A stretch of DNA of 57,251 bases from Calditrichia bacterium (GTDB lineage: Bacteria; Calditrichota; Calditrichia; RBG-13-44-9; J075). Position numbers and translations under genes: made by a program. This document shows, piece by piece, positions 137 to 43,623 of this stretch (its first letter is position 1; each line of letters opens with the position of its first letter). The notes below the pieces were generated by a model. That model searched no databases. It was given only the letters and a program-made list of their open reading frames with translations, and had not been told where the DNA came from. Location: positions 1-57,251 of the forward strand of contig JANQQU010000026.1 in the NCBI GenBank assembly GCA_028284905.1. Reading direction: 5' to 3'.

Positions 137-778
137 CTACTCATCCATCCAGCGAATAACTTCAAACGCCTCTGCATAGTGACTGCCACACTGCACACCG
201 CGCATGCGCACCTGGCTGCGAATAAAACTTTCATCGGAATAACCACGGCCGGCGGCAATCTGCGATTGGTAGCACATAATCGCCTCCAGTTTTTTGGCGA
301 TGTGTGCTTCTTCCAGTTTGATGAAGCAGTTGGTCGTCATGGTCAAATTATTCCAGGGCATTTCATAGCCAAGAATACGAGTAAACTTGAAAGCACGAAT
401 CCCTTCATTGGCAATTGTCTGATGATCCTGATGAACATCGGAACGGGCCGGCAGTAGCACCAGGTCCGGGGAAATTTGACTGCGTAATTTCACTAGTTCT
501 TCCAACAGTTCCTGACGGTACTGGGGAAATTTACGCACCGGGTAACGATAGACAAAAAGATTCTCGGAAGGAATGCCGAGCACCGCAGCTGCCTTGCGAA
601 TTTCCTGGTCGAGAATGTCTTTCGGTAACCCTTCCGGCACGGAGTCTTCCGCGATTGAAAAAGCGGCATAGTAAACGGATTTTCCCGCAGCAGTAAATTT
701 GGCGATAGTGCCGCCGCAGCCAAACTCGCCGTCATCAGTATGTGGCCCCAAAACTAACACGCGTTGAATATTTTCCAT
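137..778 (-). CDS. PIG-L / LmbE-family deacetylase
   Basis: A 213-residue protein of the PIG-L (LmbE-like) zinc-dependent N-acetyl deacetylase family, which removes acetyl groups from GlcNAc-type sugars. Seen: the N-terminal Rossmann-type strand followed by GPHTDDGE (H13, D15, D16), matching the family's HPDD metal and catalytic motif, and a second motif SDVHQDH at 113-119 supplying the other histidines. Length is normal for the family. It starts 9 bases after the AsnB-type gene, with an AGGCGG ribosome site, so the two are probably co-transcribed. In a glycan cluster a sugar deacetylase followed by acyl or other transfer is plausible; the actual substrate is not visible. The last residues are followed directly by short tandem repeats. 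Confidence 0.88.
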   Translation of the reverse strand: MENIQRVLVLGPHTDDGEFGCGGTIAKFTAAGKSVYYAAFSIAEDSVPEGLPKDILDQEIRKAAAVLGIPSENLFVYRYPVRKFPQYRQELLEELVKLRSQISPDLVLLPARSDVHQDHQTIANEGIRAFKFTRILGYEMPWNNLTMTTNCFIKLEEAHIAKKLEAIMCYQSQIAAGRGYSDESFIRSQVRMRGVQCGSHYAEAFEVIRWMDE

Positions 779-787
779 CTGCCGCCT

Positions 788-2731: not shown

Positions 2732-2941
2732 AGCAGTAAATCTCCGGAGAAGTTTGCAAGTATCTTATATGGATGAACTTGCCTTTGGTTCAAAATTGAA
2801 TAATGCGAGGGAATATAACACCTCCCGAAGAGAAAGTCGCTGGGAATCACAACTTTTTTGAAAAGATGAAATTAAACATGGGAACGTAAGCGGCCGAATG
2901 CCGAAAAGGAATGCACATAGTTTGTATGTTTTAAATACAGC

Positions 2942-3865
2942 TTACTTATAAGCAAAAATATGCATACCCGCGGTATGGTGGACGGTAAAACCCAGCGATT
3001 TTAGCAGATCTATAATGCGAGGGCCATATTGACCATCTTTATCGCTATACCAACCGGGTGTTATTATTCGCAGGGATTTTGCTGCTTGCAGATATTCCCT
3101 GGAGGCCTGCAGCGCTTTTAGCTCGATGCCGTTAATCGTTAAAATCATAAATGTCGGGGTGATTTTTTCTTCCTCAATAATCGTTGTAATTCTTCGCATC
3201 GTTAGCATTTCTGCGGTGGCGCCATCTAATTTTACCAGAGAATTTGCCTGGTTCTTCTGTTTCCAGAAGGGCATATCATTCTTGTCATCATCACCGATAG
3301 CGTAATTCAATGCTGTAACATTCTCTAACTGATTTTGGGAAATATTCTGCTGCAATACCTTAAAGGCAACAGGATCCGCTTCGACGGAAACAACTTTGCC
3401 GGATGCACCAACCAGGCGGCTCATCTGTACTGTGCCGAATCCGATGAACGGACCAAGTTCCAAAACGGTGTCGCCTGAGCGTAAGGCCATTTTTTCGGCA
3501 ACTACTTTCTGTTCGTTTGCCGGTAGATCTGCATAGGTATTTTTATGCTGGGGATGAATAACAACCGGTACGCGTTTTCTAGGCAAAATGCCGGTTTTAA
3601 TATTTTCCGCCGGGGAAAAATGGGGAAATTTATAACGGTTGATATAGGCCAGCGCAACTTCCTGATAATCGGGAGGAATGGAGAGCTCCGGCACCGGCAG
3701 CAAACCACGATCCGCAAACGAAGATAATTGAGTGCCGTCGCCAAGTGTGATGGTCGGATAGCCGTTTACTTTTTCGAAATGGGTAATTTCATCTTTGGTG
3801 AGGTTCTCAGCTAAAATCGTTTTTAATAAGAATTTCTTAATCATTTTTTTCATAATCACGACCAT
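2942..3865 (-). CDS. FkbM-like SAM-dependent methyltransferase
   Basis: A 307-residue protein with a class I methyltransferase fold. Seen: the SAM-binding motif VLELGPFIGFG at about 134-144, an acidic end of strand 2 (VVSVEADP, near residue 160), and an aromatic and asparagine-rich middle typical of FkbM-type enzymes. About 125 N-terminal residues precede the fold and I do not recognise them. FkbM-family enzymes methylate hydroxyls of sugars or polyketides, and in a glycan cluster a sugar O-methyltransferase is likely. It follows the flippase gene by 9 bases. The start is uncertain: the ATG at 3865 has AGGA directly abutting it, and the ATG at 3853 (MKKMIKK) is an equally good start. Confidence 0.75.
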   Translation of the reverse strand: MVVIMKKMIKKFLLKTILAENLTKDEITHFEKVNGYPTITLGDGTQLSSFADRGLLPVPELSIPPDYQEVALAYINRYKFPHFSPAENIKTGILPRKRVPVVIHPQHKNTYADLPANEQKVVAEKMALRSGDTVLELGPFIGFGTVQMSRLVGASGKVVSVEADPVAFKVLQQNISQNQLENVTALNYAIGDDDKNDMPFWKQKNQANSLVKLDGATAEMLTMRRITTIIEEEKITPTFMILTINGIELKALQASREYLQAAKSLRIITPGWYSDKDGQYGPRIIDLLKSLGFTVHHTAGMHIFAYK

Positions 3866-3874
3866 TCCTAATAA

Positions 3875-5182
3875 TCAGCTACCTGCTTCCGCTTGTTCCT
3901 GCTCGCGCACTGCTTTGCGAATGTACCAATAAACCATAAAATTGTAAGATGCATAGAAAACTGCTGTTGAAATAGAAAGTCCCCAGAGCATCTCGATAAT
4001 ATCATGACGAAAAAGATACATTGCTCCGTAACGAATGGTTAGGGAAAAAATAATCAGGTATAAAGCAATTTCCTGCTTATTGATAATCGAAAATGTTGTG
4101 CCGATGGGAATATTCAAAAATCGAAAGTAAATGCCCAAACTCAAAATTTGCATATAAATACCCACATCCGCCCATTCTGCAGTGAAAAAGATCTTACTTA
4201 ACCCCGGAGCGAAAATCGCTATTGCCAGGATCGGTGCAAGTCCTATCAGCGCAAGCTTTTTGATCGTTTGGAGATAGATCCCCATTAAACTTTTAGCATC
4301 ATTGTTATACAACTCCGCTGCTGCCTGGTAATACACCTGCGAGACGGATGTGCCCACCAGGTTAATCGGCATTACCGCATATTGATTGGCAATTGCATAA
4401 ATCCCCAGAAGGGTTTTATCAAAAAAACTGGAGACCATAAAAATTGGCAGGTACATGGAAAAATTGTTTAAGAAAACGGATGGAGTGTTGTAAATCGGGA
4501 ATTTTTTGTAAGTCCTTAGCAATTTCCGGATATTTTCCTTGCTAAAGTGCTGGAGCGTAAAGAAGCGTTTTTTCAGCACCAGCCAGGCGGTTACCATGGT
4601 GCCAACGATATAGCCGGAAAAAATGCCCTCGAAGCTGCTTTTGTAAAATCCCCATCCCAGGGCAACGCTATGTTGCGCACTTACCTGATAAACTTTGTTC
4701 TTTGCCAGCTCGCCAAACGCTTTGTGGCGAATCAGTATATAGCGACAAACTTGCAGTAATCCGGTAAAAAATATACCGAGGGGAATCAGGAAAAGATAAT
4801 CTTTTAGCCGTTGAAAATCTGTTGCATCCCGTGCGGGGGTAATCCAGCCCAGCGCCTGCTCTCCGAATATAAAGATGACAATCGATGAAAACACGGTAAA
4901 CAGGCAAAGTATGAGGAAAGAGATTACGACGAGGGTATCCTTATCTGCTGCATCTTCCGGTAAAACAATGGCCAGTTCGTATTTGAAAGAGGCAATCATT
5001 CCTAAAATCATCACTACCGAGAGGATTAGCTGATAATCGCCATACACACCTGGCGGATATAGCTGCTGAATGCCCCACAAAGCAATCGCGTTGATGATAC
5101 CGGCAGCAACAGTGCTGGAAAAGAGCTTGAGCACATTGCTCAAAAATTCTGATTCCGGCCAAAATTTTTTCAGGAATTTCAT
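3875..5182 (-). CDS. Oligosaccharide flippase (Wzx-like, MATE/MVF superfamily)
   Basis: A 435-residue, strongly hydrophobic protein with about 12 predicted membrane segments by eye, starting with a short basic N-terminus and a first helix containing AAGIINAIALWG. The pattern of evenly spaced helices, a periodic P-G-x-Y-G motif after helix 1 and the length match polysaccharide flippases, which move lipid-linked repeat units across the inner membrane. It lies between the methyltransferase and acyltransferase genes on the same strand with gaps of 9 and 21 bases, suggesting one transcript. Substrate cannot be read from sequence. Confidence 0.85.
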   Translation of the reverse strand: MKFLKKFWPESEFLSNVLKLFSSTVAAGIINAIALWGIQQLYPPGVYGDYQLILSVVMILGMIASFKYELAIVLPEDAADKDTLVVISFLILCLFTVFSSIVIFIFGEQALGWITPARDATDFQRLKDYLFLIPLGIFFTGLLQVCRYILIRHKAFGELAKNKVYQVSAQHSVALGWGFYKSSFEGIFSGYIVGTMVTAWLVLKKRFFTLQHFSKENIRKLLRTYKKFPIYNTPSVFLNNFSMYLPIFMVSSFFDKTLLGIYAIANQYAVMPINLVGTSVSQVYYQAAAELYNNDAKSLMGIYLQTIKKLALIGLAPILAIAIFAPGLSKIFFTAEWADVGIYMQILSLGIYFRFLNIPIGTTFSIINKQEIALYLIIFSLTIRYGAMYLFRHDIIEMLWGLSISTAVFYASYNFMVYWYIRKAVREQEQAEAGS

Positions 5183-5203
5183 AAGGATTTCAATATTGAT
5201 TTG

Positions 5204-5773
5204 CTATGATAGGGGAACGCCATTCGGTCCGCCGTATTTGCCTGCTTTTTCCAGCTGATCGTAATGTTCTTTATTGCGATATTTGATTGTTTTGCCTAGC
5301 GATGCACCGACAATGGAAAGTGGTTCAATCACCCCGGCTACCACAGCTCCGGCACCAATAATTGCACCTTCTTTAATATGCGTTCCCGGCAGGATGGTAA
5401 CATTCATACCGACCCAGACATTCTTCTCAATAATGACTTTCCGGTAGCGGAAAGTATTGTCGTAGGGAAGCACCATGCCTTCATAATTATGATTATGTGT
5501 GTATACAACAACGTTGCGGGAAAAATGACAGTTGGGGCCAATGCTTAAACCGCCTTCTCCACGAATAAATGCATTGTCTGCTATAATGACATTGTCGGAG
5601 ATTTCGATGTTTTCCAGTCCGGTGATCCGGCTAAATTTCAGGATTCTGACGCCTTTTCCGAAATGCTTCATGTGCTTCCGGTAATGTTGCATTAAGTAGA
5701 TGGCGATCATTCTATCCCGTAGCATCACAAATTTATATAAAATGTTACCAATTAATGCGCCAAGGAATTGCAT
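5204..5773 (-). CDS. Left-handed beta-helix (hexapeptide) acyltransferase
   Basis: A 189-residue protein made largely of imperfect hexapeptide repeats of the [LIV]-G-x4 type between about 50 and 170, for example the stretch with IIGAGAVVAGVI. This is the trimeric left-handed beta-helix fold of sugar O- and N-acetyltransferases (WbbJ / maltose acetyltransferase type), and H94 and neighbouring residues in VYTHNHNYEG would sit in the usual catalytic position. AGGAGA precedes the ATG. Position in the cluster suggests O-acetylation of a glycan repeat unit, but a serine acetyltransferase-like role is not formally excluded. Confidence 0.87.
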   Translation of the reverse strand: MQFLGALIGNILYKFVMLRDRMIAIYLMQHYRKHMKHFGKGVRILKFSRITGLENIEISDNVIIADNAFIRGEGGLSIGPNCHFSRNVVVYTHNHNYEGMVLPYDNTFRYRKVIIEKNVWVGMNVTILPGTHIKEGAIIGAGAVVAGVIEPLSIVGASLGKTIKYRNKEHYDQLEKAGKYGGPNGVPLS

Positions 5774-5797
5774 ACTGTCTCCTGTTGAATGCCAGGT

Positions 5798-6694
5798 TTA
5801 TAGCTGATACCCATATTTTTCAGCGAGGGGGCAAACTTGCTTCAAGGCCGTTTTATCTTCTGCTGTCCAATCGGAATATTTCGGAAAATTACCTTTGCGT
5901 TGCGGATTTACCGGTTTTCGCAGCATTTTACGCACGAGCGATTCCTGAAAACCATTGAGTGTTAAAAATGTGAATATCTGTTTGGATGCTTCCGGATTGG
6001 CAAATAGATCTTCGGCTTTAACCGTCAGGCAAATCTCCGCTGGAATACTACTTTTGAAATCTTCGATATATTGATTCGTTTCATTCCAAAGCCAGCCATT
6101 TTTTTCGATGAGGGAAAATGCCGGCCATTGCGCTTTTAGCGGCTCGGTGAGTGGTTCAATTCTGCCGATATCGTGGGAATGGCTGCCGCTATACCATTTT
6201 CTGCGGATACCACTTCTCACAAATGCGCCGGGATGGCGGACGATATGTATAAAAATTGCTTTCGGGAAAATATCTCTAATAATCGGCGCAAAAAATGTGC
6301 ATTGATTGTTTGTCTCGACGTAAATTTTTTCTTGCTGAATCGCTTTCAGTAGATACTCTTCACGGGCACTTTTAAAAACTTCCCGAAAAATTTCCGGCTG
6401 ATCTTTTAGCTGCTCATAGGCTAAGCGCGAAGGGCGATAAAGCTCCGGGCGGGGTTCGTGGAGCGGCATGGCATCGGGGGCGGATAACAGGATGTCCGTA
6501 AGTAAGCGCGTTCCGGATCGTCCGGTCGATAACACAAAGCAGGGGCGAATGTTCTGCCAGCCGGATTGTTCGCAATCCTTGAGAAAAACCTGCTTCGCCG
6601 GTATAACTTTATCGGCAGCGCTCTGAAATCGTTTCGCACCAATCTCCAGATAATGCGCAGATTTAATTAATGCTTTTCGGACAAAGTGCTTCAT
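5798..6694 (-). CDS. PAPS-dependent sulfotransferase family protein
   Basis: A 298-residue sulfotransferase. Seen: the 5-prime phosphosulfate loop STGRSGTRLL at 56-65, and the 3-prime phosphate site FIHIVRHPGAFVRSG at about 148-162 with the conserved Arg and Ser. These bind PAPS, the activated sulfate donor. The protein therefore probably transfers sulfate to a hydroxyl of a surface glycan or lipid; the acceptor is unknown. It is the first gene of the minus-strand cluster, 24 bases ahead of the acyltransferase, and its upstream region is shared with the divergent kinase gene at 7099. No strong ribosome site is visible in front of this ATG. Confidence 0.85.
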   Translation of the reverse strand: MKHFVRKALIKSAHYLEIGAKRFQSAADKVIPAKQVFLKDCEQSGWQNIRPCFVLSTGRSGTRLLTDILLSAPDAMPLHEPRPELYRPSRLAYEQLKDQPEIFREVFKSAREEYLLKAIQQEKIYVETNNQCTFFAPIIRDIFPKAIFIHIVRHPGAFVRSGIRRKWYSGSHSHDIGRIEPLTEPLKAQWPAFSLIEKNGWLWNETNQYIEDFKSSIPAEICLTVKAEDLFANPEASKQIFTFLTLNGFQESLVRKMLRKPVNPQRKGNFPKYSDWTAEDKTALKQVCPLAEKYGYQL

Positions 6695-13052: not shown

Positions 13053-16000
13053 ATGAAACGCAGCTTATTGAATCATCGGATTGTTAGCCAGGCCTACCGG
13101 GCAGGGTTGCTATTAATGATGATCTTGTTTTTAGGGAGCGAAACGGGAATTGCGCAAACTTTTGAAAAGAAAGATTACGATTCCCGTCGTATACAGGGAT
13201 CGCTCCAAAACTCAAGAAATTCTTCGCGCTTCTCCAAACAGAATAAAACTGCCAATGAAGGTAATTCTCAATATCGCCAGATTGCTATGATGGATGGAAA
13301 CCTCGCGACTGGCCCGTTTACCAACTCCGGTGTTATTTCTTATGGTGGTGTTGGTGACGATTTGCGGGTTGGTTGGCCAAAAGGTTCCCTGCGTGCCGAT
13401 TATGTTTGGGGCGCTTTCTTTTTCGTTGGTGGCGAAGTTGTCGATGATAGTGGACAAGTGATTCACATTATTTCCGACAATATCCCGAATGAGCAGGACC
13501 CCGCAGGCACACACGAATATGCATTTATGCCGCTCCCCGGATATTACAACCTCGATATTCCCGGTTCTTTCGAAGATCCGTTGATTGGTGGTGTAAGTGA
13601 GGACGTTGGTATTGACGGTATCGCCAATAGTGGTGACGAAGGTGAAGGCGATGGCGAATTGCAGCCGGCGGAAGACTTTAACGGCAACGGCGTTTTGGAT
13701 TTGAATTTGCAAAATGGTGTTGGCTGGTATGCATTGAGCAGCCGCCGGGAAACCTGGCCGGAATATTGGCCCGCCGGTTCTTACCCTGGTGATGATCGTC
13801 AGATTGGTGAAGAACGCCCCGGTGTTCGTGCGAATCGCTGGAACGGTGAATTTGGCGCTTATTTCCGTGCCGATCAGGAAATCTATTTTATTATGGATGA
13901 CCGTGAAAATGATGAATTTGAATATTATCCTTTCCCGGAAAATCGCGGTAGCTGGCCAAATGGTCGTCGTGGTTTAGGTGTAAAGGTAGAAGCCCGTACT
14001 TATCAGTGGAATGCCCGCCTTGCCGAAGATATTATGATTTGTATTTATGATATCACCAGCGAAGGTTTGGATATACCTACCAGCGTTGTCGGTATGTATG
14101 TAGATCCCGATCTGGGCGGCCCCCCGACCAATGATGATGCGCTCTTCGATGATATCGATGATATTACCTATGCCTGGAACAAACTCGGTATTTCCAATAA
14201 TGGTATTCCTCTGGGATACTTTGGATTTGCGTTCCTGGAAAGCCCGGGACTCGGTTTTGACGGCATCGATAATGATCAGGACGGCCTGGTTGATGAAAGT
14301 CAGTCCAATGGGATTGATGATGACGGCGACTGGACGACCTGGGTCGATGAAAACCTCAATGGTGTTTATGACACCGAAGATTTGAATTACAACGGTTTCC
14401 TCGATGCCGGCGAAGATGCCAACGGTAATGGCCGCCTCGATGTAGAGCCCTTAAATGATGATGTTGGTTCTGATGGCCTCGGCCCGCAGAATTTTGAGTA
14501 TACCGGTCCGGACCCCGATGGTACCGAGGCTAACAACATGCCTGACCCCGGTGAGCCGAATTTCGAATTTACCGATAATGATGAGTCCGATCAGGTTGGT
14601 TTAACATCCTTCTATCTGCGCAGCACCCAGGACCAAAATGGTTATGGTGGCCGTAATGACGAGTATTACTGGGATAGAGAAGTTCACCCGGATACTTTCA
14701 GAACCGTGCCCGGCTACCAGCAGGATATTTCCTTCTCATACGGTAGTGGATATATTCAGTTCGGTGGCGATGAAACAACCCACCGTTATGCAATTGCGCT
14801 GGTTTTCGGAAATAACTTTGAGGACATCCTGCGTAACAAGCGTACGATGCAGAATATTTACGATAATGATTATAACTTCGCCAAGCCGCCCCGGCAGCCG
14901 ATTGTTTCTGCTGTCGCCGATGATAAGCGGGTTTTCCTGGAATGGGATGCTGGCGCAGAGCGTTCCCTGGATCCCATTTATGGCCGGGACTTTGAAGCAT
15001 ATTATGTTTATAAGAGTGTTGATCCGACATTCACCGAAATTAAAACGATTACGGATGGATTCGGTAACCCATTCCTGTTTAAGTCAACTGCTCTTTATGA
15101 CAAAATTAATGGATTGGTTGGCTTGCATCCGGTGACGATTGGTAGCGAAATTGGTCCGGAAAGTGATCTTGGTGTCACTTATAATATGGGAACAGATACC
15201 GGGCTGGAGCATCGCTATGTTGATACCGATGTAATTAATGGCCGCACTTATTACTATGCTGTTTCTTCTGTGGATCAGGGATATTATGAAGACTTCTTTG
15301 ACCGCGGTATTAGCGAAAAAGCAGACTTGCTTAATATCTCCCCGACAGAATCGCCGGTGAATATTCAGGTGGATCCGCTTGGTCGCCCGATCTCTTTCGA
15401 TCCGAATACCATTCAGGTGATTCCCACGGAATTGGTTGCCGGTTGGGTAGAGCCTTCCGTTAGCGATGCCGGGATAGAGCACGTATCCGGTGTTGGTACC
15501 GGTAACATTGAGATTCAGATTTTCAGCCCGCTGGAAGTTGTTGACGGGAATAGATACCGGGTAGAATTTGACGATGATGGCCGTTTTGAAGGTCTCGATT
15601 CCGCAAGCTACACCGGTCTTACTTCTCAAATGACCATTTCTTCAATTACCGATAATGTGACGCTGTTGACGGAAAATAGTCCGGAAAATGCGGTTATCGA
15701 TGAAAGATTTATTTTCGATGGCTTCCGGGTAATTCTCCATAATGATACTAACAGTGTCGATACCTCGAGATCTTCCTGGACCAGTGGTTCTTCCCCGATT
15801 GTTGGGCTCGGTGTAAACAGCGGTAGTAGTGGCTCCGATGTCGCCCGTGATTATGAAGTGCGGGTGCTCGGTGTTGGCGCGGATACATCCTTCAACCGCC
15901 GCCCGGTAAACTTTCAGTTATGGGACGTCACCGATCCGGAAAATGAGTTCAAGTTGGAGTTCATTTTCACCGATCAAAATGAGCAGGGTATTCTCGACCA

Positions 16001-16535
16001 TAACGACAGAATTTCCTCATTCATCCGTACCCCTGGTATTAGCCGGTTGTGGACATTTGAATTCAAATTCCCGGCGACCCTGGATTCTTCCCTGTGGGTT
16101 GCACCGCAAACGGGTGATGTTTATAAATTCTTCACCAAAAAGAACTTTAATCGCAATGACGCCTTCGAATTTACCATGTCCGGTAATATCATTAATGATG
16201 TGATGGCAGAGAATGAACTGGACGACATCTACGTCGTGCCGGATCCTTACATCGCTGTTAACCCGGTTGAGCGTAAAGTGCTTAACCCGGAAGAAGGCCG
16301 TGGTGATCGTAAGCTCGATTTTGTGAATTTGCCGCAAGAATGTACTATTAAGATTTTTACCGTATCCGGAAAGTTAGTTCAGACGATCACCCACAGTTCT
16401 TCGGAAGATAATCGCCGGGCCAGCTGGGATCTGAGAACTGTTGACGGATTGGAAATCTCTCACGGAATGTATTTCTACGTAGTGGATGCCGGAAACCTCG
16501 GTACCAAGACGGGTAAATTTGCTGTGATCAAATAA
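13053..16535 (+). CDS. Large secreted protein with Ca-binding-like repeats and T9SS-type C-terminal domain
   Basis: An 1160-residue secreted protein. An N-terminal signal peptide ends at about residue 35 (GIAQ). Between about 175 and 520 there are repeated Asp, Asn and Gly-rich loops (for example DGIDNDQDGLVDE and DANGNGRLD) resembling EF-hand or thrombospondin-type-3 calcium loops. A fibronectin type III-like module lies near 620-740. The last 90 residues form a FlgD/Por-secretion-like beta-sandwich ending GKFAVIK, typical of type IX secretion cargo. An AGGA ribosome site lies 7 bases before the ATG. It starts 58 bases after the TonB receptor and precedes the PorV-type gene, so the three probably act together at the cell surface. 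No enzymatic motif is recognised; its role may be structural or ligand-binding. Confidence 0.75.
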   Translation: MKRSLLNHRIVSQAYRAGLLLMMILFLGSETGIAQTFEKKDYDSRRIQGSLQNSRNSSRFSKQNKTANEGNSQYRQIAMMDGNLATGPFTNSGVISYGGVGDDLRVGWPKGSLRADYVWGAFFFVGGEVVDDSGQVIHIISDNIPNEQDPAGTHEYAFMPLPGYYNLDIPGSFEDPLIGGVSEDVGIDGIANSGDEGEGDGELQPAEDFNGNGVLDLNLQNGVGWYALSSRRETWPEYWPAGSYPGDDRQIGEERPGVRANRWNGEFGAYFRADQEIYFIMDDRENDEFEYYPFPENRGSWPNGRRGLGVKVEARTYQWNARLAEDIMICIYDITSEGLDIPTSVVGMYVDPDLGGPPTNDDALFDDIDDITYAWNKLGISNNGIPLGYFGFAFLESPGLGFDGIDNDQDGLVDESQSNGIDDDGDWTTWVDENLNGVYDTEDLNYNGFLDAGEDANGNGRLDVEPLNDDVGSDGLGPQNFEYTGPDPDGTEANNMPDPGEPNFEFTDNDESDQVGLTSFYLRSTQDQNGYGGRNDEYYWDREVHPDTFRTVPGYQQDISFSYGSGYIQFGGDETTHRYAIALVFGNNFEDILRNKRTMQNIYDNDYNFAKPPRQPIVSAVADDKRVFLEWDAGAERSLDPIYGRDFEAYYVYKSVDPTFTEIKTITDGFGNPFLFKSTALYDKINGLVGLHPVTIGSEIGPESDLGVTYNMGTDTGLEHRYVDTDVINGRTYYYAVSSVDQGYYEDFFDRGISEKADLLNISPTESPVNIQVDPLGRPISFDPNTIQVIPTELVAGWVEPSVSDAGIEHVSGVGTGNIEIQIFSPLEVVDGNRYRVEFDDDGRFEGLDSASYTGLTSQMTISSITDNVTLLTENSPENAVIDERFIFDGFRVILHNDTNSVDTSRSSWTSGSSPIVGLGVNSGSSGSDVARDYEVRVLGVGADTSFNRRPVNFQLWDVTDPENEFKLEFIFTDQNEQGILDHNDRISSFIRTPGISRLWTFEFKFPATLDSSLWVAPQTGDVYKFFTKKNFNRNDAFEFTMSGNIINDVMAENELDDIYVVPDPYIAVNPVERKVLNPEEGRGDRKLDFVNLPQECTIKIFTVSGKLVQTITHSSSEDNRRASWDLRTVDGLEISHGMYFYVVDAGNLGTKTGKFAVIK

Positions 16536-26972: not shown

Positions 26973-28751
26973 TTATTTTTCGTTGTTGAAATTAAAGTAA
27001 TAATCGTCGCCGGAAAGTTTATGACCGGTAATTTCACCAACGAGATCCTCATACTTACCAATATCTGCATCAGTGATTTTTCTCTCGTTCACTTTGATGT
27101 AATCCTTGCACAATTCGAAAGCAAACGTTTTCTCGCTGCGATTTAAATAACCATCTTCCAGTAAAGCTTTATAAAGGGATTCGCTTAATTCTGTCTCAAT
27201 GCCTTTCAATCGTTGTTCTTCTTTATCCAGGTATGCACGCTGTTCATCAAGCTTCTTACGGAGCTGCATCATTTCCCGCTTTCTTTCCTTGATATTCAAC
27301 GACATGCCTTCCCGTATTCTCTCTTGCTCTCTTTTTATTAACGCTTGCTGTTTCTCCATCGCCAGTTGGGATTGCCGGCGAAGTTTTTCCTGCTTTTTAA
27401 GCAGTTCCGTTTCCAGCTTCATCCGCTCTTTTTCGGCCATCTGCAATTGTTTTTGGTGGTCTTTCGATAGCCGCTGCATATTTTTTTCAGCTTGAAGCTG
27501 ATACTTCATTAATTCCCTCTCCTGATCTTTCATCAATGCCAACTGTTCTTTTTCGAGCTTTTTTTGCACTGCCATCAATTCTTTTTCCTGTAATCGCAGC
27601 ATCTCTTCATGTGCTTCCATTTCAGCAAATTTTTCCGTCCACCGACGATATTCTTCACTATCCTTAGGATACACCGAGCGTTTACCGTCTTCAATGACAA
27701 CCACACGTTCGTCATCAATTGTTACTTCATATTGATCGGATATGAAAGTACGCTTATCGCCATCGCCTTCCTCCGCCGCGTTCAGGGCGCTGAAGGTAAT
27801 CGCGAGAAAGCTGCAGAGGATTATAGACATCGTAACCCACTGGCGATAAATCGCGCGGGAGGGGAAGTAGTTTTCTTTCATGATCAAAATCCTTTTTTTA
27901 AGTTGGGATGATTGGTTAAAAAATGGTACTACCGGGGAAAGGGGCGAAGGCACATTTAGCAAGCCGGTAACGGCAAGCAGTGTTTCTGCATATGCCTTCT
28001 TTTCCACACCCGGCTGTTGCAGAACCGCGCGGTCGCAAAGCATTTCCCGCTTTTCATCGATCAGGCGATCGTTGAGGTGAATCAGCGGGTTGTAGATAAA
28101 GAGAATGCGCACCAATTTCTGGAAAAGATTTACCAGGAAATCGTGACGTTGAATATGAATCAATTCATGACGGATAATCATTTCGATCTGCAATTCATTC
28201 AGCTTCTCCGGGTAATCTTCCGGTAAAACGATATAGCCGCGGCGGAAGCCAAAACTGAAGGGGCTCTTAAAAAAGCGGGTCAATACAATACGGACATCCC
28301 GTTTGATATTTTGCTTTTCCTGGATGCGCTTAAGAATCATCAGAGGGCCTTCCCGGTCCGTGCGAATAACGCTGAATAATGCCAGGAACTGCTGGAGAAA
28401 GCGCAGAAGCACCAGACTAACGATTGCAGCGACGGCGAAGGGGAGAGCGGCAAGTCGCCAATGTGCCTCGGGAGGTTGCGCAGCCAAAATTTCTGGTGCA
28501 GTGCTATTATAAAAAATACTGTAACTGAATTGCGCTGGCGTAGCGCTGCTTTCAGGATTATTGATAAACAGCAGAGAAATTGCTACTGCAATCGGCAAAT
28601 AGAGTTGTAGTAAAAGATGCGTATTGTATTGCCAACGGATATCCATTCGCCGGGAGAACAGGTAAATGAATCCGAAGCCGGCTGCCCAAATCAGGTTGAC
28701 TTGCAAAAAATAAAAAAGGATCGCCTGTTGATCTTGTAAAATAGTTTCCAT
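26973..28751 (-). CDS. M56 (BlaR1-type) metallopeptidase with a long coiled-coil tail
   Basis: A 592-residue protein. Three N-terminal membrane helices, the zinc protease motif HELIH at 195-199, the further ligand region EKREMLCDRAVL and a fourth membrane helix at about 304-325 match BlaR1/MecR1. Beyond it, where BlaR1 carries a penicillin-binding sensor, this protein has a charged region of about 165 residues (about 366-535) rich in Glu, Lys, Gln, Met and Leu, predicted coiled coil, and then a small C-terminal domain. By topology this part is periplasmic. Its start overlaps the repressor's stop by one base (TAATG). The coiled coil may sense envelope strain or bind a partner; this is inference. 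Confidence 0.87.
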   Translation of the reverse strand: METILQDQQAILFYFLQVNLIWAAGFGFIYLFSRRMDIRWQYNTHLLLQLYLPIAVAISLLFINNPESSATPAQFSYSIFYNSTAPEILAAQPPEAHWRLAALPFAVAAIVSLVLLRFLQQFLALFSVIRTDREGPLMILKRIQEKQNIKRDVRIVLTRFFKSPFSFGFRRGYIVLPEDYPEKLNELQIEMIIRHELIHIQRHDFLVNLFQKLVRILFIYNPLIHLNDRLIDEKREMLCDRAVLQQPGVEKKAYAETLLAVTGLLNVPSPLSPVVPFFNQSSQLKKRILIMKENYFPSRAIYRQWVTMSIILCSFLAITFSALNAAEEGDGDKRTFISDQYEVTIDDERVVVIEDGKRSVYPKDSEEYRRWTEKFAEMEAHEEMLRLQEKELMAVQKKLEKEQLALMKDQERELMKYQLQAEKNMQRLSKDHQKQLQMAEKERMKLETELLKKQEKLRRQSQLAMEKQQALIKREQERIREGMSLNIKERKREMMQLRKKLDEQRAYLDKEEQRLKGIETELSESLYKALLEDGYLNRSEKTFAFELCKDYIKVNERKITDADIGKYEDLVGEITGHKLSGDDYYFNFNNEK

Positions 28752-29125
28752 TAGTCTTCATCCAGATCGTCTAATAGTTTTTTGATTTCCGTCAGCTCTT
28801 CCCGGCTGACTTTTTCTGATTTTACCAGGGATTGCACCAGATCCAGCGCGGAGCCGGCAAATACTCTTTCCAGGGTGCGTTCCAGCAGATTCTTCCGTAA
28901 ATCTCCCGGCGCAATCCGGGGGAAATAGATGTATTTCTTTCCGGACTTTTTATAATCGAGAAACCCTTTTTCAGCGAGATTTTTCATCAAGGTCATCACC
29001 GAGGTATAGGCGGTTTCCCGTTTTTTACTGATCTCGTCGACCACTTCCTGAACGGAAGCTTCCTTAAGCGTGCAGACGATATTGTAGATTTCCAGTTCAA
29101 CATCGCCCAATCGTTTTTCCAGCAT
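28751..29125 (-). CDS. BlaI/MecI/CopY-family transcriptional repressor
   Basis: A 124-residue winged-helix repressor. Seen: LGDVELEIYNIVCTLKEA at the start, TSVMTLMKNLAEKGFL as the recognition helix, the wing KYIYFPRI, and an acidic dimerisation C-terminus. It is the first gene of a likely transcript with the M56 protease (overlap TAATG) and possibly the two permeases. Two TACTA-type palindromes lie 23 and 46 bases upstream of its ATG, which fits autoregulation. By analogy to bla/mec systems, the M56 protease would cut or cause loss of this repressor when triggered. Confidence 0.9.
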   Translation of the reverse strand: MLEKRLGDVELEIYNIVCTLKEASVQEVVDEISKKRETAYTSVMTLMKNLAEKGFLDYKKSGKKYIYFPRIAPGDLRKNLLERTLERVFAGSALDLVQSLVKSEKVSREELTEIKKLLDDLDED

Positions 29126-34439: not shown

Positions 34440-37400
34440 ATGGGAATTTCCCGCATATTCATCAGTTATGCCCATCGCAATCAGCGATTGGCCCGCGCCC
34501 TTCATGAAGCACTGCAGGAGGCAGGTTTCCACAGTGTGATGAATACCTTGCGGGATCATCAACCCTGGCCGGCGGAAAATGCCTACATGGTGATGGAATA
34601 TGACGTTATTTGCCTGCTATGGACTTCGGAAGCAGCAATTTCGCCCTGGATGCGGCATGAGTGGCAAACAGCCCGGGCGCTGGGTAAACGGGTGATTCCC
34701 TGCGTTTTTCCTAATGCGCCGAAAATACCAACGCCAATTTCCCGCGTTTTTACAATTGAATTTAAAGATATTTCCAGAAGTTGCCAGGTCCTTATCGATC
34801 ATTTGAAATATGCATCTCCGTTTACTGCCCAATATCAATTAGATGAACTGCCGGCAAAGTCGTTGATGCCATTTCGTATGCCGCCAGATTTTATCAGCAG
34901 AGATCTTGATATGGTTGAGATTTACCTCAATCTTAACGATTTATACAACAAGGTTGTGCTGGTAAATGAGGATGATGCCCAGGGAGATGGCTTTGGTAAG
35001 ACGACGCTTGCGGCCGCCTTTGCGCATCGTTTCGGCATTGCTTATGAAAAAATTTTCTGGCTGCAGGCAGATAGCGAAGCCCGCTGGCTATCGGAATGGA
35101 TATCCCTGGCCAGAGATCATTTAGCGCTTACCATCGCCGATCCGGAGGCCGCGGATGCAAACCGGCAATATCTGCAAAAATTGCAAACCTACTGCAATAA
35201 TCACCCCAATATTCTGATTGTCGCAGATAATGTTTTCGGACGGGAAATCTTCGAAAATGATGAATATCTGCTAGGGCTAAATCCCATGTCACTGAAGTGC
35301 AATATTTTATTTACTTCCCGATTTCCGGTGAGTGATCTCGGACTCATTTCCCATCCGGTAAAAAGATTCTCGATGATAACTTCCTATTTTTATCTTTCCG
35401 GGAAGAAAGCATCCGGAAATAATCGGAAATTTATTAACGATATTTGCCATCGGGTTGGCTATCTACCCCTTCGACTGTCATTGCTCAAAGGGTATCTCCA
35501 TCATAAAGCGGCGATGCCGATTGCAGATTATTACGCGGAAATTTGTAAAATAGGCGAAGAAAATGGCGACGAGGCTGGTTTATCCGCTGCTGTCCAGGAA
35601 AAAGTTATGGATTTTACGCTGGAGAAAATTTGGGCATTATTGGAAAATTCTCTCGCTGGCCAACTACTCTCCTTGTGTTGTGCACTCCCCGCAGATTATC
35701 CGTTAACCATCGCTCGCTTAAAACTGCTTCAGCAGCAGGATTGCGATAATCAGCTGGAAAAGACCGGCTTTAAACAAGCACTCAAAGAACTTCGGTCCCT
35801 TTATTTGCTGGATTTTGCGCCACGAGAGCAAGCATTGATTCGCATGCCCGATTTAGTAAGGGCATTTATATTGAAAAAGATCGGTAAAACGCAGGACGAT
35901 ATCATCAGGTCCGCCATAAAAACGTTGAGTGAGATTTGCCGGAAACCGATGACCCTAACGGAACAACTTTTAAACCGGCCACTCTGGGCATTCATCGAAG
36001 ATCTTGATGCTGCTTTGTCCTGGGAATTATCAGACGCGAAAATCCGAAAAACGCTGAAACAAACTCGCCGCCTGCTTTTGCGGACCCATCGGGAGATAAG
36101 CGAATTACAAACCTGGAAAAAAAGATCTTACCTGCTTCAGCAGCTCTTCTGGAGCGCCGTTCAGATGGGAATGGTGACATTCGGGGAGAAGATACGCCAG
36201 ACTATTTTCCGGGAAGATGAGATGTTTTTTGAGAATCGTTTTTTAACTCGTTTTGAAGATCCTTGCCTGTTAAAAACACTGAACGGCCATAGCGCGCCAA
36301 TCAATACCGTTGCATTAAGTGCAGGCGCCGATTGGGTTGCCAGTGGCAGTAATGATAAAAAAATACTACTCTGGCATCTTTGGAAAAAGAATGCCTCGTA
36401 CTTGTTTGACGGCCATAGCGGCGCAGTGAAAGCGTTGAGCTTTTTAGGGGATACTCATCTGGTTAGCGGTGGAAATGATGGTCGCATTCTCTCCTGGGAT
36501 ATTACCGAAGGCAAACTGGAACATGAGTATGAAGGACATAAGGGTGGCGTAAATGCCATAGACTGCAGTAAAGATGGCCGCTGGCTGCTCAGCGGTGGGG
36601 AAGATCATCGGCTGGTGTTGCGCAAAATGCCATCCGGTGAAATTGTCCACACTTTTTTGGAGCACTCAATGCCATTAACTGCGGTCGCCATCAACGATGA
36701 CGGCAGCATAGGAATCAGCGGATCAGAAGATGGAACGATTTTTATCTGGGACTTTCTGAAAGGAAAAATGTGCCACGCATTGCCCGTTCAAAGCGGTTGG
36801 GTGCTTTCATTATCTTTATTGGATAATGGCCAGTTCGCTCTCAGTTCCACGATTGGGAGCGGCACTCAATTTTGGAGTGTAAATGCCGGGGAAAGGCTGT
36901 TTGCCCTGGAGGAACAATCTGCCGCGATTAAAAGTGCAGCAGTGGCAACGGATAGTCGCTTTGCCCTCGCCGGTGCAGATGATGGCTCGCTGAAGCTATG
37001 GGAGCTGGGGGGCGGAAAAATTGTTCGCTCCCTGAAAGGGCACCGGCATGCGGTGCATAGCGTAGAAATAAATGATAGCGGGGATATCGCTATTAGTGGC
37101 GCGATGGATAGGACTGTGCGGGTGTGGGACCTCAGCAATGGTGATTTGCGCACCGACCGCCAGCAGCATCACAGCCGGATTTCCCATTTAGCCCTGAGTG
37201 GTGATGGGCGAATCGTGGTGAGCCAAAGCTGCAAGGAAAAGATGCTGATTTTCCGGGAATTTGCTAATGGCGCCATTAAAAATACTGTTCATCCGGAAGA
37301 GCAGCCGACTGCGATTACTTTAAATAATGATGGCGCATTGGCTTTTTGCGGATATTCCAGCGGGCATTTTTCAGTTTTGGAGCGGAAAAGCGGATCTGTT

Positions 37401-38021
37401 GCTGCTCGCTACGAAGGGCATCACAGTGCTATTAATGCGATCGCGTTAAACGAAGAAAAGCAACTTGCCCTAACCGGTGGGGATGATGGAAAGATGCTCC
37501 TGTGGGAATTACCGAGCGGTATCGTCCGCCGTTTAATTGCCCGGCCGGATACCTGGATCGAACATGTTTCCCTCAGCCGCGATGGCCAGCGGGGGATGTG
37601 TGTTCTCGGCAGCGGTAAAATTGAGATCTGGGATTTGGTAAATGACCGCTTAATCGGAGACTGTGAAAGTTCGTCTATTTTCAATCACCAGGGACATTTA
37701 CTGGCAGACGGACGCAGATTGCTTTTTGCAAATGCACCTAATACCTGGGCCTTGAAAGATTTGGATAATGGTGATATTATCCACGAATTAAAAGGACACC
37801 AGGCAGAAATCCTCGGAAGCAGCCTTGCCGGCAATGGCAAATTTCTCCTCAGCTATGATGATCATGGAAAGTTGATCATCTGGGACATTAAACAGGGAAC
37901 AATCGTGCAACAGTTTTACACTTTTAAGAGGTGTAGTGCTATTGCGGCCTCCCGAAACAACATCGCTCTCGGTAATAATAGTGGCACCGTGGCATTTTGG
38001 GAATTTTATTCCGGGGAATAA
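34440..38021 (+). CDS. TIR - NB-ARC - double WD40 propeller protein (NLR / APAF-1-like)
   Basis: A 1193-residue cytoplasmic protein without signal peptide or membrane helix. Residues 1-125: TIR domain starting RIFISYAH, with Glu74 in SPWMRHEW where TIR NADases have their catalytic Glu. 150-400: NB-ARC/STAND ATPase with P-loop GDGFGKTT (K187), Walker B-like NILIVADNV (Asp263), ILFTSR (RNBS-B-like, 289-294) and GYLPL (GLPL-like, 340-344). About 400-600: helical winged-helix-like region with MPDLVRAF at 469-476, equivalent to the MHD motif. 611-1193: fourteen WD40-like repeats of about 42 residues, enough for two seven-bladed propellers. The layout is TIR effector, nucleotide switch and sensor, as in bacterial NLR-like defence proteins and in APAF-1. 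The gene stands alone. Function is inferred: a NAD-depleting or signalling cell-death or antiphage protein. Confidence 0.85.
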   Translation: MGISRIFISYAHRNQRLARALHEALQEAGFHSVMNTLRDHQPWPAENAYMVMEYDVICLLWTSEAAISPWMRHEWQTARALGKRVIPCVFPNAPKIPTPISRVFTIEFKDISRSCQVLIDHLKYASPFTAQYQLDELPAKSLMPFRMPPDFISRDLDMVEIYLNLNDLYNKVVLVNEDDAQGDGFGKTTLAAAFAHRFGIAYEKIFWLQADSEARWLSEWISLARDHLALTIADPEAADANRQYLQKLQTYCNNHPNILIVADNVFGREIFENDEYLLGLNPMSLKCNILFTSRFPVSDLGLISHPVKRFSMITSYFYLSGKKASGNNRKFINDICHRVGYLPLRLSLLKGYLHHKAAMPIADYYAEICKIGEENGDEAGLSAAVQEKVMDFTLEKIWALLENSLAGQLLSLCCALPADYPLTIARLKLLQQQDCDNQLEKTGFKQALKELRSLYLLDFAPREQALIRMPDLVRAFILKKIGKTQDDIIRSAIKTLSEICRKPMTLTEQLLNRPLWAFIEDLDAALSWELSDAKIRKTLKQTRRLLLRTHREISELQTWKKRSYLLQQLFWSAVQMGMVTFGEKIRQTIFREDEMFFENRFLTRFEDPCLLKTLNGHSAPINTVALSAGADWVASGSNDKKILLWHLWKKNASYLFDGHSGAVKALSFLGDTHLVSGGNDGRILSWDITEGKLEHEYEGHKGGVNAIDCSKDGRWLLSGGEDHRLVLRKMPSGEIVHTFLEHSMPLTAVAINDDGSIGISGSEDGTIFIWDFLKGKMCHALPVQSGWVLSLSLLDNGQFALSSTIGSGTQFWSVNAGERLFALEEQSAAIKSAAVATDSRFALAGADDGSLKLWELGGGKIVRSLKGHRHAVHSVEINDSGDIAISGAMDRTVRVWDLSNGDLRTDRQQHHSRISHLALSGDGRIVVSQSCKEKMLIFREFANGAIKNTVHPEEQPTAITLNNDGALAFCGYSSGHFSVLERKSGSVAARYEGHHSAINAIALNEEKQLALTGGDDGKMLLWELPSGIVRRLIARPDTWIEHVSLSRDGQRGMCVLGSGKIEIWDLVNDRLIGDCESSSIFNHQGHLLADGRRLLFANAPNTWALKDLDNGDIIHELKGHQAEILGSSLAGNGKFLLSYDDHGKLIIWDIKQGTIVQQFYTFKRCSAIAASRNNIALGNNSGTVAFWEFYSGE

Positions 38022-39720: not shown

Positions 39721-42700
39721 TTACCAGCGCCATTGCAAATAGCCTTCTAAGCGGCTACCCCCGCCTCGTAAATAAGAATAGTAAATTCCCGGAGTGATCG
39801 AACTGCTGACCGGCGATACCCGAATTTCGCTTTCCTGCAATTGATCCCCCGCCTGCCGAAAATGCACCCAGATATCCAGCATCGGTAATTGTTGCCGGTT
39901 ATTTACGGTTGCGTTTAACTGGTAATCCACAACGGTTTGAGTAAGTTGACGATTCGCTACCAGCTGCCCGAATAAAGTGTGCTGCCACTGCAATAGAAAA
40001 CCACTGCCGATCCATTGTAGCGGCTTCGCCTTATCTAAAGTTTCCCCGACCACCGGCATCCAGAGGTGATTGCCCACCGGCAAGGCCAGGGAGTGAAAAA
40101 CTTCGGTTGAAGTACCGGTCTCTTCGTCCCGGTATCCATGATTCAGCCGGGTGCCGATCCGCCAGGAATTACGGGAGTGAAAATCCCATTGTAAGCGCAA
40201 GTGGTTGCCTGGCTGGAAGTCAAATTCATTCAAATCCAGAGAACCCTGCAGATAGTGTTGTTGATGCCGCCAGTAAAAAGCCGCTGCCGGTTGCCAGGTA
40301 TCTGCAGCCTTGCTAATTTTGCCGCGTAGTGATAATCCGGAGGAATACCAGGCGATTTCATTGTATCCCCGGGGCATTTCCCAACGTCCGTCATATTGCC
40401 AGTGCGTTCCCTGGGAAATGCGCAATCGCCGGAAGGGATGAACTTGCCAGTGGGCGTTGTATTCCTGTAATTTGCTTTGCTCATTTTGCCATCCCTGCAA
40501 TGTAAAGGCCCAGGAGCGCCGATAAGCCCCGATAAATTGGCGGTACTGGCTTTCTCCGCCGGTTGTGGTTTTCTGAAAAAAGCCGTTCAGTTGCCGAAAT
40601 CGCCAATTCAGAAATGCGTTGCTATTGCTGCTGCTTTTCTCCCAACGATATCCGGGATTTACCAACATGCTGCCGGATCGATACTGCAATTGTGCCTGCC
40701 GTTGATAATCATCCTGGAAAGAATTGTCCTGGTAAAAAAGCTGACTGCCGTTATTGCCGATCAGGCGGAATTCATGAGATTGGTGATCATCTATCCAGAA
40801 TCCTCCCCGATAGGAAACCCCGGCCCCGCCCCGTGCCCGGGCGCTCAAGGCAATATTTTGCACCCGAAAACTGGAAGTGGAAAATGTGCCTTCTTCAAAC
40901 GCCTGCCACTGCCAATTGCGAATGCGCCCGTTGAAATGATAACGATGCGGCAGTGACAGGGAGAATGTACTGGGAGAATCCCGGTTATAGCTTGCCTGGG
41001 AAACACCGGAGAGTACGAAATAAGCATGCTCCAGAAAATGACTGTCATTCAGCCATTGCTCCTGACGATTCAGGAAGCCGGATGTCAATCCATGCATCAT
41101 CTCATAGGCAATACGGTTGCGGAAAAACTGTTGATTGACCGTGAACATCCCTTCATAACTGCGCCGGGCATTCGGCTGCTGGTTGAGCCAGGCAATAAGG
41201 TTCGGGGATTTATGATAACGATAGGGAATCCTCACGACAGCAGTTGTGACGCCGATGTCCAAAGTGCCGGGGCCCTGGAGATGAAACTTTCGGGTTGCGC
41301 TCGTCTCTGAAAGGGGGATTTCTAACTGCCGGTTAAAGCGTAGCGGCACTTCCGCAATGCCGGAAACTGTTAAAGTGTAGCGATGCGCCGGGGCAGTGTC
41401 GATATGCCCTTGCCAGGAATGATCTGCCCGTTCAAGAAATAGGGTTATCGGGAAGTCACATTCCAGCAGCAAATCCTGACTTTTGAAATGAGTGAAATCA
41501 TTCAGCAGTAAAGCGGTAATCCTCCCGGCTGCATCGTACCGCGCCATCAGTGTTCGGGCATTCGACTGCCAGCGATCGCTGCGCAGAGAATCCGTGTAGT
41601 TCATGGCAATATCCATCGCTGCAAAGGGAGATTCAGGTAAATCGAAACGCAACGCTTCCCCTTCGCCGATGATTGGTATCCATTCCGGATACAGCGGGGC
41701 AGCGCCATCCTCATGGGGATAAAACAGGGTTAACAAATTGCCGCGCATGGCTGGCGCATGGCCAATTTGAAAACTGTTCAGCGGGCGCGAAACGACTTGT
41801 GGCGTATAAAGTCCATAGTTCTCGGTAATCAGCGGTTTCTGCGGAGAGCTGCTTAAGGTAATCATTTGCAGGTTGGCATTGCCGTTACGGATGGTCATTA
41901 CATTCGGAGATTCCTGCTGGAAATCTCCAAGGTAGTTAAAGTTTTGCGAGATGCTATGTTCCCGGCTCCCTTCGAAATGATCCAGCATCAGGATGAATTT
42001 GTTCTCCAGAAAGAATGCCCGCCGCTGCAGCCGAACGTCGCTAATGATGTGGCGCATTGCCACCGCCGCGCTGCTGCTTGTTTGATAAGCATGGGTTATT
42101 TCACTGGCGATCGGGTCGCCCCAAATCGGATTTTGATAAGTGCCCCGACCATCTAACAACAAACCATTATTCGCCTGGGCGGAGACAAACCAGGCACGAT
42201 TATCGTCGTAAACGCCACCACCATAGCCACCATCGACGATCAGATCATTCCCAAAAGCGCTGATTTCCATACTAAACGGGTCAACGTGCTCATGACGGCT
42301 GGCAAACCATTCTTCCCGTTCGGAAAGAAAGGCGGCATAAATATTGGGCTGCAGATGACGATCGCGAAAAACCGTCATACCGGACTCATAGAAAAACTGC
42401 ACGGCCGGCACTGCAGCGGAAATTTTTCCGGCAAGCGGTGTAAAGACCGCCATTCCCTCCGCCATGTTGTTATGAAAAAAATTATCCGGTGGCAAGGTCT
42501 GCCAGAAGGCGTGCCAGGGTTGCCGCAGGCGAGACTGCGGGATAATCAATGGTAGCGTAAACGGCCGCACCTGAAAGGCATCATCGAAGGCGGCATAACG
42601 GCCACTGCCTTTTTCGTTGGCAATCATCCAGTTCACCATCCGTTCCAGGTAAGGATGGCGATAGAGAGAAATACCGGTGGTATTTCGAAAGTAGAGAGAA

Positions 42701-43623
42701 AAGGGTGCCAGATAGCCGGTAATATACTGTCCGTAATAAACACCCTCTACATAGCCGCCGTCCGGGGCGATCAGTCCAAGCGCGCGGGAAAGATATTCAA
42801 TGCCCTGCTGCCAGATATTCTGCCGGCCATTGCTAATAAACAGCTCCGGTTGATCCTCAAGAATTGCAGCAGTGAGCGTGGCGACTGCCATAACGGTAAC
42901 ATGATTATTCGCAGGGGTGTAGAGCATGCCATCAAGAAGCTGCTGGGCAACTTGTGTTAGCTTGCGTCGAACTGTTTGAAGCAGGTCCGGCGGTAAATCA
43001 TCATATAACAAATCTACTGCAACACACAATGGCATCAGCGCTTGCGCGGAGAGGAGAAAATCGCCCCAGCCGGTATTGTTTGCGCCTCCTTCCAGGTTAA
43101 CAATAACTGGTGGTTCCGGCAATTGCTCCAGTAGTAAAATAGCTGCCTGCAAATAGCGGGTATCGTTATCGATGTGATAAAGAAAAGCCAGTGTTTTAAT
43201 GTCTTCCGCCTGGCGAAAAAGGAGGCCGCTAAGCAGCGGATTGTTGCTGTTCAGGTATTTTTCAACCCGGTCTTTCATCAGTTGATACCATTGTTGATGA
43301 GGGGCGCGCAAACGGTTCTGCCGGGCATGATGAAGCTGTATTGGGGTTATTAAGCGGGGATGGGGCATTGGTGTAGACAAATAAAGCCTGGGCAATTCCA
43401 GTGCGGTATAAGGGATCAGTTCGATCGGGTTGGTCTTCTTGAAATTGGCGGCAGCAATGCCCTTCAGAAGGGCTCCCGGCAGCGATTTTGCCGGCGGCAA
43501 AGGATCCGGAGATTCCCACACTTGTAGTGAGTCGCGATGAAACTGTGAAGATTGCGACATCAGTTCAGCAGCACCAGTCAGCAATAGAAATAGCAGGAAA
43601 AATAGAATACGGCGATGTCGCAT
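39721..43623 (-). CDS. Heparinase II/III-like polysaccharide lyase fused to a probable outer-membrane beta-barrel
   Basis: A 1300-residue secreted or outer-membrane protein. A signal peptide covers about residues 1-23. Residues about 110-400 are an alpha-helical toroid with the conserved NNH (239-241), followed by DGGYVEGVYYGQY (288-300). Residues about 425-720 form the beta-sandwich of heparinase II/III-like lyases, with HEHVDPFSMEISAFG (444-458) and LIVDGGYG. The family cleaves uronate-containing polysaccharides by beta-elimination. From about 860 to the end the chain consists of alternating aromatic, amphipathic strands and short turns, ending in Trp (YLQWRW), as an outer-membrane barrel does. 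The fusion suggests a lyase displayed on the cell surface. Catalytic assignment is by pattern only; substrate unknown. Confidence 0.72.
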   Translation of the reverse strand: MRHRRILFFLLFLLLTGAAELMSQSSQFHRDSLQVWESPDPLPPAKSLPGALLKGIAAANFKKTNPIELIPYTALELPRLYLSTPMPHPRLITPIQLHHARQNRLRAPHQQWYQLMKDRVEKYLNSNNPLLSGLLFRQAEDIKTLAFLYHIDNDTRYLQAAILLLEQLPEPPVIVNLEGGANNTGWGDFLLSAQALMPLCVAVDLLYDDLPPDLLQTVRRKLTQVAQQLLDGMLYTPANNHVTVMAVATLTAAILEDQPELFISNGRQNIWQQGIEYLSRALGLIAPDGGYVEGVYYGQYITGYLAPFSLYFRNTTGISLYRHPYLERMVNWMIANEKGSGRYAAFDDAFQVRPFTLPLIIPQSRLRQPWHAFWQTLPPDNFFHNNMAEGMAVFTPLAGKISAAVPAVQFFYESGMTVFRDRHLQPNIYAAFLSEREEWFASRHEHVDPFSMEISAFGNDLIVDGGYGGGVYDDNRAWFVSAQANNGLLLDGRGTYQNPIWGDPIASEITHAYQTSSSAAVAMRHIISDVRLQRRAFFLENKFILMLDHFEGSREHSISQNFNYLGDFQQESPNVMTIRNGNANLQMITLSSSPQKPLITENYGLYTPQVVSRPLNSFQIGHAPAMRGNLLTLFYPHEDGAAPLYPEWIPIIGEGEALRFDLPESPFAAMDIAMNYTDSLRSDRWQSNARTLMARYDAAGRITALLLNDFTHFKSQDLLLECDFPITLFLERADHSWQGHIDTAPAHRYTLTVSGIAEVPLRFNRQLEIPLSETSATRKFHLQGPGTLDIGVTTAVVRIPYRYHKSPNLIAWLNQQPNARRSYEGMFTVNQQFFRNRIAYEMMHGLTSGFLNRQEQWLNDSHFLEHAYFVLSGVSQASYNRDSPSTFSLSLPHRYHFNGRIRNWQWQAFEEGTFSTSSFRVQNIALSARARGGAGVSYRGGFWIDDHQSHEFRLIGNNGSQLFYQDNSFQDDYQRQAQLQYRSGSMLVNPGYRWEKSSSNSNAFLNWRFRQLNGFFQKTTTGGESQYRQFIGAYRRSWAFTLQGWQNEQSKLQEYNAHWQVHPFRRLRISQGTHWQYDGRWEMPRGYNEIAWYSSGLSLRGKISKAADTWQPAAAFYWRHQQHYLQGSLDLNEFDFQPGNHLRLQWDFHSRNSWRIGTRLNHGYRDEETGTSTEVFHSLALPVGNHLWMPVVGETLDKAKPLQWIGSGFLLQWQHTLFGQLVANRQLTQTVVDYQLNATVNNRQQLPMLDIWVHFRQAGDQLQESEIRVSPVSSSITPGIYYSYLRGGGSRLEGYLQWRW

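Follow-up and report, generated by a model that had tools for sequence, protein, structure and literature searches.

A conserved fusion of a heparinase II/III-superfamily lyase to a predicted, unusually large beta-barrel in Calditrichota

In diderm bacteria the cleavage of polysaccharides and their passage across the outer membrane are usually carried out by separate proteins, and to our knowledge carbohydrate handling in the Calditrichota has been little studied. A gene on a contig of a Calditrichia bacterium raises the question of whether a single chain might bring a polysaccharide lyase and an outer-membrane barrel together. The contig of 57,251 nucleotides (the window, in whose positions all coordinates below are given unless stated otherwise) belongs to a genome of 8.55 Mb, and its minus strand carries a single continuous ORF of 1300 codons plus stop (39721-43623), which starts with ATG and has a GGAG ribosome-site-like motif 5 bases upstream of it. 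As read from the translation, the protein opens with a hydrophobic Sec-type signal sequence that lacks a lipobox Cys (MRHRRILFFLLFLLLTGAAELMSQ; approximately residues 1-24, 43552-43623, minus strand). It is followed by a lyase (approximately residues 80-790), a helical linker modeled by AlphaFold2 with low confidence (approximately residues 791-890; 40954-41253, minus strand) and a C-terminal beta domain of about 410 residues.

The sole Pfam domain detected in the ORF is Hepar_II_III_C (PF07940), which matches residues 441-590 with an E-value of 3.8e-9 and a score of 36.8 bits (Pfam gathering cutoff 24), and which is matched in all five homologous fusions covering that region. The secondary structure of the model and Foldseek comparisons recover the layout of the heparinase II/III superfamily, namely an alpha-helical toroid (approximately residues 80-400; 42424-43386, minus strand), whose helices are partly of low confidence, and then an antiparallel beta-sandwich formed by Hepar_II_III_C and the following sheet (approximately residues 401-790; 41254-42423, minus strand). 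A profile of seven homologues matched the PL39 lyase Dp0100 of Defluviitalea phaphyphila (E ~1e-12, over residues ~141-785) and the PL15 lyase Atu3025 (E 3e-8), the former supporting both toroid and sandwich. In Foldseek searches with the AlphaFold2 model Dp0100 was likewise the top match (E 6e-18), followed by Atu3025 (E 4e-14) and further by dermatan sulfate epimerase, exoHep, heparinase III and the PL17 enzyme Alg17c, while a single-sequence search of the PDB returned Atu3025 (3A0O) as the only significant match.

These alignments place the catalytic His and Tyr of the superfamily at H241 of an NNH motif (42901-42903, minus strand) and Y297 of a GGYVEGVYY motif (42733-42735, minus strand): H241 aligns with H311, the catalytic base of Atu3025, and H187 of Dp0100, and Y297 with the catalytic Y365 of Atu3025 and Y239 of Dp0100, the Dp0100 pairings being counted from the profile alignment. 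H444 of the triad H444-E445-H446 (42286-42294, minus strand) aligns with H531 of Atu3025. The aligned His and Tyr are the proposed base and acid in the Atu3025 and Dp0100 enzymes (PMC11921355). The lyase residues are conserved, as the earlier note's reading requires: H241, Y297 and H444 are invariant in the five copies that cover the lyase, as are N239, N240, E293, R443, H446, D448 and the entire RHEH motif. The lyase homology and the catalytic residues are thus established computationally, and the N-terminal part is probably an alginate/heparin-type lyase with its nearest relatives in PL39, PL15 and PL17. A further position (approximately residues 485-488; 42160-42171, minus strand) aligns with a His of Dp0100 which, from the related PL17/PL21 site, we take to be perhaps a metal ligand. 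The homologues L003 and L004 keep a His there, whereas the window protein, L002 and L005 have Asn, Gly or Ser, so that some members of the family may have a degenerate metal site.

The motifs reported for PL39 are ADNH, PRPHNH, RYLLF and YREG (PMC10056287), whereas the window protein has ASRH, TPANNH and YVEG and lacks RYLLF; and despite the shared His/Tyr pair, Arg314 of PL15 Atu3025, three residues past the catalytic His, is replaced by an invariant Val244. Given these partial PL39 motifs and the Arg-to-Val replacement, we assigned the lyase to neither family. A barrel has been described neither for Dp0100 nor for the PL39 enzyme AlyRm3 of Rhodothermus marinus, which has a C-terminal FlgD-ig domain where the window protein has its barrel, and Atu3025 likewise lacks one. 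In the earlier description of a heparinase-like enzyme, heparinase is no more than the Pfam name: the closest characterized enzymes are PL39 and PL15 alginate lyases, and the substrate would be an acidic uronate-containing polymer, with an alginate-like one as a first guess from the nearest relatives.

AlphaFold2 was run twice, once with residues 101-1300 and once with residues 781-1300, and both models contain 29 consecutive antiparallel strands across residues 891-1298, joined by turns of mostly 2-5 residues and with neither helices nor other fold elements among them. Most residues in the strand region have pLDDT values of 75-97, the majority exceeding 80, and the preceding residues 791-890 are helical and uncertain. 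On the basis of the two models, Foldseek and the strand analysis, we predict that this domain (residues 891-1300; 39724-40953, minus strand) is a membrane-type beta-barrel of about 28 strands, which would be unusually large. Foldseek searches with the 781-1300 model matched mainly membrane barrels, including VDAC, LptD, the ushers PapC/FimD, porins, TonB receptors and the Deinococcus SlpA complex, with E-values of ~1e-4 to 1e-2 and TM-scores of at most ~0.36 normalized to the query length. LptD, PapC/FimD and SlpA resemble the window protein in their many antiparallel strands and in a C-terminal barrel that is preceded by a soluble N-terminal portion, but they share no sequence similarity with its barrel, and none of them contains a polysaccharide lyase. 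That barrels of approximately 28-30 strands exist is clear from SlpA of Deinococcus, described as 30-stranded (PMC9388160).

The C-terminal sequence RLEGYLQWRW (39724-39753, minus strand) resembles a beta-signal in the last strand. Ten alignment columns are invariant in all seven sequences, R1291, E1293 and G1294 among them, and the last residue is W in five, F in one and L in one, and hence aromatic in 6/7. An apolar face is seen in 27 of the 29 strands, with a mean face contrast exceeding that of all 500 within-strand shuffles. The domain thus has the long run of amphipathic antiparallel strands and the beta-signal-like end of an outer-membrane barrel, but the soluble sandwich of the lyase, taken as a control, shows an equal polar/apolar contrast; for this reason we no longer take the alternation of residues to prove a membrane barrel, and the contrast supports amphipathic strands without by itself being proof of a membrane location. 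The two exceptions, strands 5 and 6 (residues 947-969), have no convincing apolar face and could form a hairpin outside the membrane, so that the number of transmembrane strands would be about 26-29.

With a pTM of 0.56 and the low TM-scores, closure of the barrel is a tentative prediction. These values count against a membrane barrel, as do the presence of ApoB, a lipid-binding sheet, among the Foldseek matches, the equal contrast of the lyase sandwich and the odd number of predicted strands; the bacterial barrels known to us have an even number and keep both their ends on the periplasmic side. The same low TM-scores, ApoB match and non-discriminating alternation would suit a soluble large antiparallel sheet that binds lipid or sugar. 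We give this alternative only a slim chance, in view of the predominance of integral membrane barrels among the matches, a composition with much W, Y and Q, little K and no Cys, the conserved C-terminal motif with its mostly aromatic end, and the 29 strands uninterrupted by other elements. The models resemble neither a soluble sandwich nor a solenoid, and the claim of a secreted lyase continuous with a barrel-like region is borne out as a prediction by the ORF, the conserved catalytic residues, AlphaFold2 and Foldseek; the Trp end it included is present, and the region measures about 410 residues (891-1298) rather than about 440.

A search for the same fusion recovered it in 7 of 40 Calditrichota genomes, distributed over four families (f1, f2, f5 and f6) at 28-40% identity. 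Besides the window's copy there are three further full-length copies, one that loses its N-terminal end at a contig edge, and two truncated ones in which the barrel survives, in one case with part of the lyase sandwich. Since four other genomes preserve the architecture at 32-40% identity, and the two contig-truncated copies preserve the barrel, the fusion reflects more than chance, and the fusion and its conservation are established computationally. Among 53 PF07940 loci in the phylum, five lie in frames of 1159-1315 residues and are fused; for the remaining 48 the frames span 330-855 residues, too short for the barrel. Two further PF07940 proteins are encoded in the window's genome, where their frames measure 809 and 739 residues. 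Profile searches of the Calditrichota genomes found nothing credible for the barrel outside the fusion, and never the barrel alone; weak matches over profile positions 8-56 to three 2-oxoglutarate-dehydrogenase-like and two peptidase-like sequences were rejected as chance similarity. Nor was the barrel found in plasmids, PHROGs or PDB sequences, or in a weak search, with few candidates scored per genome, of 395 genomes from another phylum, the one to which a Bacteroidales record belongs. A contig scan with the single sequence gave no relatives, and one with the alignment gave long relatives solely in Calditrichia/Calditrichota records, along with three distant lyases outside the Calditrichota whose similarity is confined to the lyase part. 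Three of the homologues also occur in named public records, every one from Calditrichia/Calditrichota, which gives the phylum as Calditrichota. In the open-licence literature we found no description of such a lyase-barrel fusion, which suggests a way of holding an enzyme at the cell envelope that we have not found described.

On balance we favor, with moderate confidence, a polysaccharide lyase whose own very large barrel fixes it to the outer membrane. This reading draws on the continuous ORF with its PF07940 domain, the Dp0100 and Atu3025 matches and the invariant catalytic His/Tyr/His; on the 29 strands with tight turns and apolar faces and their membrane-barrel matches; and on the retention of the fusion across four families, with the barrel found only fused. 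What we infer of sidedness, conduction, transport direction and substrate can be put as follows. The protein would be exported by Sec, and its C-terminal 410 residues would enter the outer membrane, forming a single barrel with about 28 strands. The lyase, in the first 790 residues, would perform beta-elimination of a uronate-containing polymer using H241 and Y297, with the helical linker keeping the lyase at, or partly within, the barrel mouth. By analogy with other proteins combining an N-terminal domain with a C-terminal barrel, the lyase most likely faces the periplasm, and it would trim acidic polymer or oligomers that pass the barrel or are delivered by other channels. A more specific and rather speculative proposal, which we think improbable, is a self-contained lyase-gated channel, in which a barrel of 28-30 strands passes acidic polymer or oligomers while the lyase docked at the pore mouth cuts them during passage. 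A lyase joined in one conserved chain to a barrel close to the largest on record would represent a new means of placing such an enzyme at the outer membrane, and the fusion offers a defined protein for the joint study of channel activity, sidedness and lyase activity.

The main rival to the periplasmic orientation is an autotransporter-like surface enzyme, the barrel and linker delivering the N-terminal lyase to the cell surface to attack extracellular polymer. The order of signal, enzyme, helix and C-terminal barrel recalls type V secretion, and type V autotransporters and PlpD-type fusions are likewise single chains with an enzyme N-terminal to the barrel; moreover, Dp0100, the nearest solved relative, is an endolytic polymer lyase, and an odd 29 strands would place the N-terminal end of the barrel outside if its C-terminal end were periplasmic. 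However, classical autotransporter barrels have 12 strands, less than half of the 29 predicted here, the autotransporter Pfam domain is absent from every member of the fusion family, Omp85/POTRA elements are lacking in the window protein, and a lyase of 790 residues would have to cross the membrane. We accordingly rate surface delivery as unlikely, if the foremost competitor.

The neighborhood speaks against the preferred outer-membrane anchoring, in that it contains no transport or degradation genes. In the window the fusion is flanked by a convergent serine beta-lactamase-family protein, a TIR-NB-ARC-WD40 protein, a TPR-like protein and a two-component system; as read from the sequence, its neighbors elsewhere are an HtrA-like protease and DnaK (G020) or Rho (G022), and in G034 a protein whose C-terminal domain is of the type IX kind. 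The neighbors thus vary by genome without conservation. No polysaccharide utilization locus or transporter genes adjoin the fusion at any locus with readable flanks, and the earlier suggestion that depolymerization is coupled to product uptake finds no support here. A 366-residue exported protein without a Pfam match, encoded next to the fusion in G020 (L033:11368-12468, minus strand), was rejected as a conserved partner, as it occurs widely across the phylum, for the most part where the fusion is missing, and does not track it.

No genes for uronate catabolism or polysaccharide synthesis adjoin the gene either, which bears on a further alternative, export-side editing, in which the barrel would be the exit pore of an exopolysaccharide and the lyase would clear or trim the cell's own acidic polymer, as though the alginate secretion proteins AlgL and AlgE were joined in one chain. 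The closest characterized lyases do act on alginate, and the window contains a polysaccharide cluster (137-6694, minus strand) encoding a PIG-L deacetylase, an asparagine synthase, a methyltransferase-like protein, a flippase, a hexapeptide transferase and a sulfotransferase. This cluster is, however, 33 kb from the fusion gene, and none of the other genomes whose flanks could be read has synthesis genes next to the fusion, so that we hold export-side editing to be quite improbable.

Other genes of the window include one for a protein of 1193 residues with TIR, NB-ARC-like and WD40 repeat regions (34440-38021, plus strand), a STAND-type sensor layout that possibly serves anti-phage defense. 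The gene for a protein of 1160 residues without a Pfam match (13053-16535, plus strand) separates those for a TonB-dependent receptor and a PorV-like protein, and a BlaR1-type M56 peptidase (26973-29125, minus strand) lies adjacent to a penicillinase repressor.
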